This document shows positions 99-316 of a stretch of 64,000 nucleotides of DNA, one piece after another; positions within the stretch are counted from its first letter, which is position 1, and each line of letters begins with the position of its first letter. The notes under the pieces were generated by a model. The model worked only from the letters and a program-made list of their open reading frames with translations. It searched no databases and was not told the DNA's origin. The stretch comes from Petrotoga mexicana DSM 14811. GTDB lineage: Bacteria > Thermotogota > Thermotogae > Petrotogales > Petrotogaceae. The stretch is from positions 1-64,000 of the forward strand of contig NZ_AZRN01000036.1 in the NCBI RefSeq assembly GCF_002895565.1. Direction: 5' to 3'. The translations under genes were made by a program, and so were the position numbers.

Positions 99-127
99 TT
101 GACAAATATTTTTTTTTATAGTATAAT
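99..127 (+). promoter_or_regulatory. Consensus sigma-A promoter of the asparagine operon
   Basis: TTGACA at 99-104 and TATAAT at 122-127 are separated by exactly 17 bases, a perfect match to the housekeeping consensus. It sits 45-55 bases upstream of the leader peptide start. A promoter this strong is typical of genes controlled after initiation, here by attenuation. Confidence 0.9.
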
Positions 128-186
128 TAATCAAATTTGAAAATTTATAAAGATAGTAAGAAAAATTGATTTAGGAGAAAATGGTT

Positions 187-255
187 ATGAAAATATCAAA
201 AATGCTATCAGTTTCTAAAAAAGTAAATAATAATAACAATAAACAGCGTCGGTGA
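187..255 (+). CDS. Asparagine-rich leader peptide (attenuator control ORF)
   Basis: A 22-codon ORF reads MKISKMLSVSKK, then Val, then five consecutive Asn codons (226-240: AAT AAT AAT AAC AAT), then Lys-Gln-Arg-Arg and TGA. The SD AGGAG is at 173-177; ATG 187 has a 9-base spacing, while ATG 181 in the same frame is closer (3 bases) and possible. The ORF lies between a consensus promoter and an intrinsic terminator, directly upstream of an asparagine synthetase-like gene. By analogy with the trp and his leaders, I infer that ribosomes stall on the Asn codons when charged tRNA-Asn is scarce. The gene is too short for homology evidence; the case rests on codon content and position. Confidence 0.85.
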   Translation: MKISKMLSVSKKVNNNNNKQRR

Positions 256-316
256 TTACGCTGTGCATTGTTGTTTTGGAAATTGCCGACGCAGAAAAAA
301 CAGCGTCGGTTTTTTT
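244..316 (+). promoter_or_regulatory. Transcription attenuator (antiterminator/terminator) of the asparagine operon
   Basis: Terminator: CCGACGC (286-292), a ten-base A-rich loop, GCGTCGG (303-309), then seven T (310-316). A second exact copy of GCGTCGG lies at 246-252, inside the last leader codons, and can pair with 286-292 as an antiterminator. CAGCGT (244-249) can instead pair with ACGCTG (258-263). Predicted logic: a ribosome stalled on the first Asn codons leaves 246-252 free, so the antiterminator forms and transcription continues. A ribosome at the stop codon (253-255) covers 246-252, so the terminator forms. Pairings are read from the sequence; the mechanism is inferred. Confidence 0.82.

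Follow-up and report, generated by a model that had tools for sequence, protein, structure and literature searches.

Upstream of the asparagine synthetase gene of Petrotoga mexicana DSM 14811 lies an element that we consider, with high confidence, to be a ribosome-mediated transcription attenuator sensing charged Asn-tRNA. Its Asn-rich leader peptide very likely acts as an asparagine gauge, the enzyme gene being read only when asparagine is scarce. The original prediction, made from the letters of the DNA, placed an Asn attenuator before an asparagine synthetase-like gene; the leaders of orthologous genes, the covariation of the RNA helices and the identity of the enzyme all argue in its favour. 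Positions given below are those of the window, that is, the whole stretch of 64,000 nucleotides that was analysed.

Organisation of the leader region

Positions 99-317 comprise a consensus promoter, a leader ORF rich in Asn codons and preceded by a Shine-Dalgarno (SD) sequence, and a three-arm RNA switch. The features of this region and the gene behind it are as follows.

99-127, + strand: sigma-70-type promoter, TTGACA (99-104), 17-nt spacer, TATAAT (122-127), matching the consensus at 12 of 12 positions
173-177, + strand: leader SD sequence, AGGAG, identified by sequence
187-255, + strand: leader peptide ORF, MKISKMLSVSKKVNNNNNKQRR, 22 codons from ATG187, stop codon TGA at 253-255
226-240, + strand: five consecutive Asn codons, AAT AAT AAT AAC AAT, read as regulatory codons
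243-264, + strand: predicted self-hairpin of arm A (243-249 with 258-264), which would sequester A when no ribosome is present
246-257, + strand: arm A, a copy of the terminator 3' arm overlapping the leader stop codon
281-292, + strand: arm B, used both by the putative antiterminator (with A) and by the terminator (with C, through 285-292)
303-316, + strand: arm C (303-310) and U-tract (310-316), predicted intrinsic terminator
374-1333, + strand: predicted asparagine synthetase of the AsnRS-related (archaeal AS-AR) type, 319 aa, with its SD sequence AGGAGGG at 361-367

The perfect promoter, the SD-led 22-codon ORF with five Asn codons in a row and the terminator accompanied by an exact second copy of its 3' arm had all been pointed out in the original prediction, and each is present. 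The copied motif, GCGTCGG, occurs exactly at both 246-252 and 303-309, and the repeated block is longer still (ACAGCGTCGGT, at 243-253 and 300-310). Close relatives have consensus-like promoters at the equivalent position. ATG187 is located approximately 10 nt from the leader SD sequence and is kept as the start codon in close relatives; ATG181, in the same frame, is an alternative start that would give 24 codons, two residues more.

The terminator consists of positions 285-292 paired with 303-310, followed by seven U at 310-316, and the region from 265 to 317 folds at -15.6 kcal/mol. The alternative helix between A and B comprises 12 bp (246-257 with 281-292) with an energy of -18.2 kcal/mol. 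Neither the extent of this helix nor the self-hairpin of arm A had been pointed out in the original prediction. Three helices compete in this leader, A with itself, A with B and B with C. In predicted folds, an RNA ending before arm C adopts the A:B helix, an RNA beginning after A adopts the terminator, and the RNA from 240 to 317 forms both the A hairpin and the terminator. Neither the Asn-run ORF nor the A:B duplex is a product of chance: among the 472 ORFs of the window that start with ATG and encode 12-45 aa, counting both strands, this is the only one with a run of at least four Asn codons, and the energy of the duplex was equalled by 1 of 300 dinucleotide shuffles.

The downstream enzyme

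The product of the downstream gene is predicted to be an AsnRS-related asparagine synthetase. It scores 447 bits against the NCBIfam model NF005054 ('asparagine synthetase A'), for a curated cut-off of 309 bits, which independently backs the earlier assignment of this enzyme to asparagine synthesis. Among proteins of solved structure, it is closest to the archaeal asparagine synthetase of Pyrococcus abyssi (3p8t, E-value of 1.5e-50) and the related 1nnh. The protein has a single Pfam domain, tRNA-synt_2, without a tRNA anticodon-binding domain, and aligns with the catalytic part only of AsnRS and AspRS chains. A true AsnRS is encoded in the same genome (NF003037, 554 bits). Asparagine synthetase B was considered as a second enzyme and discarded, with no match above cut-off in the genome. 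The AS-AR gene is the only asparagine synthetase gene that we found in this genome, and Asn-tRNA should therefore depend on its product unless asparagine is taken up, a dependence that fits control by Asn-tRNA charging. Conversely, the Asn leader also backs the functional assignment of this AsnRS-like gene as an asparagine synthetase.

Proposed mechanism

In the mechanism that we propose, RNA polymerase would start at the perfect promoter, and a ribosome would translate the 22-codon leader behind it. If Asn-tRNA is plentiful, the ribosome would pass the five Asn codons, reach the stop codon and cover arm A; arm B would then pair with arm C, and the resulting terminator would end transcription before the gene. 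If asparagine is short, the ribosome would stall on the Asn codons and leave arm A, which begins just after them, free. Arm A would capture B as it emerges, making the terminator come too late, and the asparagine synthetase gene would be transcribed. Without translation of the leader, A would fold on itself, again leading to termination. The parts of this switch, their conservation, the covariation of the helices and the folding bias under a masked ribosome footprint are observations, from which we infer that the ribosome stalls, that A:B wins kinetically over B:C and that the cell responds to Asn starvation.

Conservation across Thermotogota

The AS-AR gene is present in 35 of 38 genomes of the order, as well as in further Thermotogota families. 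All 48 testable Thermotogota orthologues, namely those with enough upstream DNA, are preceded by an SD-led leader, whose Asn codons come close ahead of its stop codon, and by an intrinsic terminator. Forty-seven of them were scored (the remaining one is L053) and, together with two Caldisericota genes, they make up the 49 scored leaders. A terminator hairpin was found in every leader scored, and the A:B alternative is found in all testable Thermotogota orthologues except for a single decayed case (L070, in genome G054), whose VDNDN leader has neither an Asn run nor a good A:B helix. The longest Asn runs range from 1 to 9 codons, with 37 of the 49 leaders having at least four; those of Mesotoga-like genomes have just 2-4 Asn codons (DNN to NNNN). 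Run lengths differ by whole codons between leaders. Apart from the three arms, conservation of the leader is limited to the SD sequence, the frame and the Asn codons. We looked among the 48 Thermotogota orthologues for leaders without Asn runs or without the duplicated arm, and the pattern held. The alignment of upstream regions, which had been proposed as a check, likewise showed that leaders with Asn codons are kept across Thermotogota and that both helices covary.

Two loci have unusual arrangements. In L010, the attenuator is intact and located approximately 470 nt farther upstream of asnA, with inserted sequence in between. In L065 (G024:C12:117741-118651), asnA is split over two frames, which may reflect a broken gene or a sequencing error; the attenuator is intact.

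Pairing of the arms and ribosome position

In the Petrotogaceae alignment (A2), 92.7% of the cells pair in the A:B helix, and sliding lowers this figure to 54% or less. Nine double changes are seen, and the covariation score is 0.215, versus 0.166 for shuffled alignments. For B:C, pairing reaches 98.2%, with ten double changes and none of 500 shuffles scoring as high. The alignment of the other lineages (A3) gave 99.4% pairing for A:B and 100% for B:C. As both helices are supported by pairing and covariation, arm B appears to be held by two mutually exclusive partners. Compared with dinucleotide shuffles of A, the energy of the A:B duplex has a mean z of -3.9 across leaders, L070 being a clear failure and L030 marginal. 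Arm A starts 0-11 nt past the final Asn codon of the cluster, and its end lies between -10 and +14 nt from the stop codon; a ribosome at the stop codon would therefore cover it.

We then masked the ribosome footprint and folded each transcript at the length it would have immediately before arm C appears. The mean probability of B pairing with A was 0.80 for a ribosome on either the first or the second Asn codon; it fell to 0.48 on the last one and to 0.18 on the stop codon, and was 0.63 without a ribosome. For the window leader, it was 1.00 at the first Asn codon, 0.00 at the stop codon and 0.00 without a ribosome. The value was higher at the first Asn codon than at the stop codon in 49 of 49 leaders, a count which, like the others, overstates significance because related sequences are not independent, yet several families of the phylum are covered. 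The shuffles and the Wilcoxon test likewise ignore this kinship. The folding agrees with the earlier proposal that a ribosome at the stop codon covers the copied arm and one stalled on Asn does not. We dropped equilibrium folding as a proof of the switch: for the complete leader at thermodynamic equilibrium, the terminator is favoured in nearly all states, and only folding before termination discriminates between them. The switch would hence have to be kinetic.

Alternative explanations

Riboswitches and T-boxes also act through arms that alternate between terminator and antiterminator, and the leader RNA might sense asparagine, another ligand or a tRNA directly, its arms overlapping a short ORF by chance. 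We consider this very improbable. The T-box covariance model gave no match in 103 Thermotogota genomes, whereas control genomes did match, which speaks against a T-box and agrees with the reported absence of T-boxes in Thermotogota (PMC3766115). In addition, no Rfam family reached its gathering score on the leader, and direct sensing does not account for a conservation that lies in the translated features rather than in the RNA outside the three arms.

Two other readings, of comparable and even slighter probability, take the ORF into account. The Asn run might be an (AAT)n microsatellite beside an ordinary terminator, constitutive or controlled by a protein, since it consists mainly of AAT in an AT-rich genome. 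However, the codons are mixed across leaders (214 AAT and 76 AAC of 290), the runs are interrupted by other codons (NNNVNNNN, NNFNNN) and persist in GC-richer relatives, and the best SD-led start is in frame with the run in 48 of 49 leaders. Neither frame-shifted Asn runs nor runs without a terminator were found in Thermotogota, and a simple repeat would leave the duplicated arm and the covariation unexplained. As for an arrest peptide, in which the nascent Asn-rich chain would stall the ribosome on another signal such as a drug or a polyamine, as in erm and tna leaders, the logic of ribosome position would be identical and masked folding is indifferent to the cause of the stall; moreover, consecutive identical residues can slow ribosomes. 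Against it, Asn alone is conserved, the remaining peptide varies freely between families along with the length of the run, and the controlled genes make or feed asparagine and glutamine. Attenuation governed by Asn-tRNA charging is the reading that we retain.

Archaea and other phyla

Approximately 30 archaeal AS-AR genes were inspected, and none has an Asn-run leader upstream. In a tree of 62 AS-AR proteins, the leader types group with the enzyme, with 5 label changes compared with a mean of 32 after shuffling. Two Caldisericum genes nested among those of Mesoaciditogaceae have a leader of the Thermotogota type; Caldisericaceae genes that group with archaeal ones have no leader. By this tree, the leader travels along with the gene.

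Fourteen AS-AR genes of the Aminicenantota/Acidobacteriota type (L077, L080, L093, L096, L105, L113, L114, L119, L127, L129, L132, L137, L146 and L152) have leaders ending with NNNVPF or similar, with few bases before the start codon, then the Asn codons. Most have a hairpin over the stop codon (GTCCCC/GGGGAC), and in none of the fourteen was a clear U-tract terminator found. The hairpin partner of the third base (C or U) in the last Asn codon tends to change together with that base, with an alignment count that is not decisive. Judging from this organisation, these leaders would exert a control different from that of the Thermotogota attenuator. A third form of leader (NNP...NPNASF) is found with AS-AR genes of the Bipolaricaulota type. 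Among the Bipolaricaulota/Neomarinimicrobiota loci (L098-L101, L109, L111, L112 and L149), most have a conserved NNP...NPNA(S/P)F motif, and in several a GC hairpin lies across the stop codon.

Other genes with similar leaders

Genome-wide searches with covariance models of the leader, followed by reading of the matches, revealed Asn leaders before other nitrogen genes. A further copy is present in the genome of the window itself (G000:C10:62842-62939), and its Asn run and arms were matched in five Petrotoga-type genomes, this one included. In L193 and L194, the two of these loci that were read, the Asn run and arms form the extreme end of the ORF for the small subunit of glutamate synthase (...EYLISSNNNNNKQRRLKTL*); a terminator comes next, and then genes for an ammonium transporter and PII. 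The L193 locus (51-640 and 726-2388; G000:C10:62350-64687) has the Asn tail NNNNNKQRRLKTL* at the C-terminus of the small subunit, then amt and PII. The putative attenuator of L193 would thereby borrow its leader from the end of the upstream gene. Masked folding of this gltD-amt copy gave 0.89 at the first Asn codon and 0.00 at the stop codon.

Asn leaders also precede the glutamine synthetase gene glnA in two Mesoaciditogaceae genomes and one genome of family f11 (L196, L197 and L198); masked folding is convincing for L197 and weaker for L198 and L196. In four other arrangements, asnA and then glnA directly follow the attenuator (G001, C73; G029, C3; G035, C1; G101, C1), and in those four genomes Asn probably controls glutamine synthetase as well. 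Such control does not extend to all glnA or amt genes, as no Asn-run leader was found in 38 other upstream regions of these genes in Thermotogota.

It is tempting to consider Asn-tRNA charging as a signal of nitrogen status, with one scaffold serving asparagine synthetase, asnA-glnA operons, glnA on its own and, in Petrotoga, amt-PII, and Asn leaders of separate architecture, having a hairpin over the stop codon and no U-tract terminator seen, in Aminicenantota/Acidobacteriota and Bipolaricaulota. We lean towards this view, with less assurance than for the attenuator itself.

The same scaffold occurs with other codons, before thrS (TTTT), aspS (DDD) and a his operon (HHHH). L200 (near 495-604) and L202 (near 497-607) have a Thr-run leader, MLKYKLSITTTTN..., before the gene for threonyl-tRNA synthetase. 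On the minus strand of L201, an Asp-run leader, MSVLSFKKVDDDIIAP, precedes the gene for an archaeal-type aspartyl-tRNA synthetase, and the HHHH leader is on the minus strand of L204, before a putative his operon whose genes were named by reading only.

Several other matches were collected. In L195 (426-792), an Asn leader (NNNNNRPGSVG) and a terminator are followed, approximately 210 nt downstream, by an ORF of 589 aa that has no clear family match; the leader may be an orphan copy. L199 (433-595) and L207 (438-622) have leader-like ORFs with similar arms before genes for an ABC transporter and a branched-chain amino acid transporter. Two weak matches (G000:C4:33844, E-value of 0.03, and G000:C36:78394, E-value of 0.3) were set aside as ordinary terminator-like hairpins behind genes.

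Relation to known systems and implications

The trp, his, leu, thr, phe and ilv attenuators of proteobacteria operate by ribosome-mediated transcription attenuation. As in those systems, the element described here has a short translated leader rich in codons for the product of the pathway, a stop codon overlapping an arm, an antiterminator alternating with an intrinsic terminator, and a target that makes the sensed amino acid. It differs from them by its Asn codons, its AsnRS-related asparagine synthetase target and its Thermotogota host. As every testable sequence feature of the trp/his-type mechanism is present, the window leader appears to belong to the ribosome-mediated attenuators, and would represent classical attenuation with an undescribed Asn specificity. 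Consistent with the original prediction that an Asn leader is not a standard example, no such attenuator is present in Rfam (no family above gathering score) or described in the papers searched, an absence that is no proof as most subscription journals were outside the search.

By method, the nearest described case is the Cys leader of cysS in Rhodobacterales, the uORFC-8-2 motif (PMC8632094). There too, the leader ORF was found by comparison, has tandem codons for the amino acid of the downstream gene, and its structure is supported by comparison; it differs by its amino acid, its aminoacyl-tRNA synthetase target, its alphaproteobacterial hosts and its two conserved codons instead of an Asn run (PMC8632094). 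The T-boxes of Firmicutes and Actinobacteria likewise sense tRNA charging and choose between terminator and antiterminator upstream of amino-acid genes, but they bind uncharged tRNA directly, without translation. The archaeal AS-AR enzymes, including that of P. abyssi, belong to the same enzyme family, and the archaeal genes inspected differ by having no Asn-run leader.

With this element, asparagine would become a further amino acid to which leader-peptide attenuation responds. Given the glnA and amt targets, nitrogen status may be reported by Asn as well as by Gln or 2-oxoglutarate. The mechanism would also be extended to a deep-branching thermophilic phylum without T-boxes, with a record that is consistent over dozens of species, and the Thr, Asp and His leaders on the same scaffold suggest that attenuation is general in this phylum. 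Ribosome-mediated attenuation works only if a ribosome follows RNA polymerase closely; that translation is coupled to transcription in Thermotogota therefore becomes a testable prediction.
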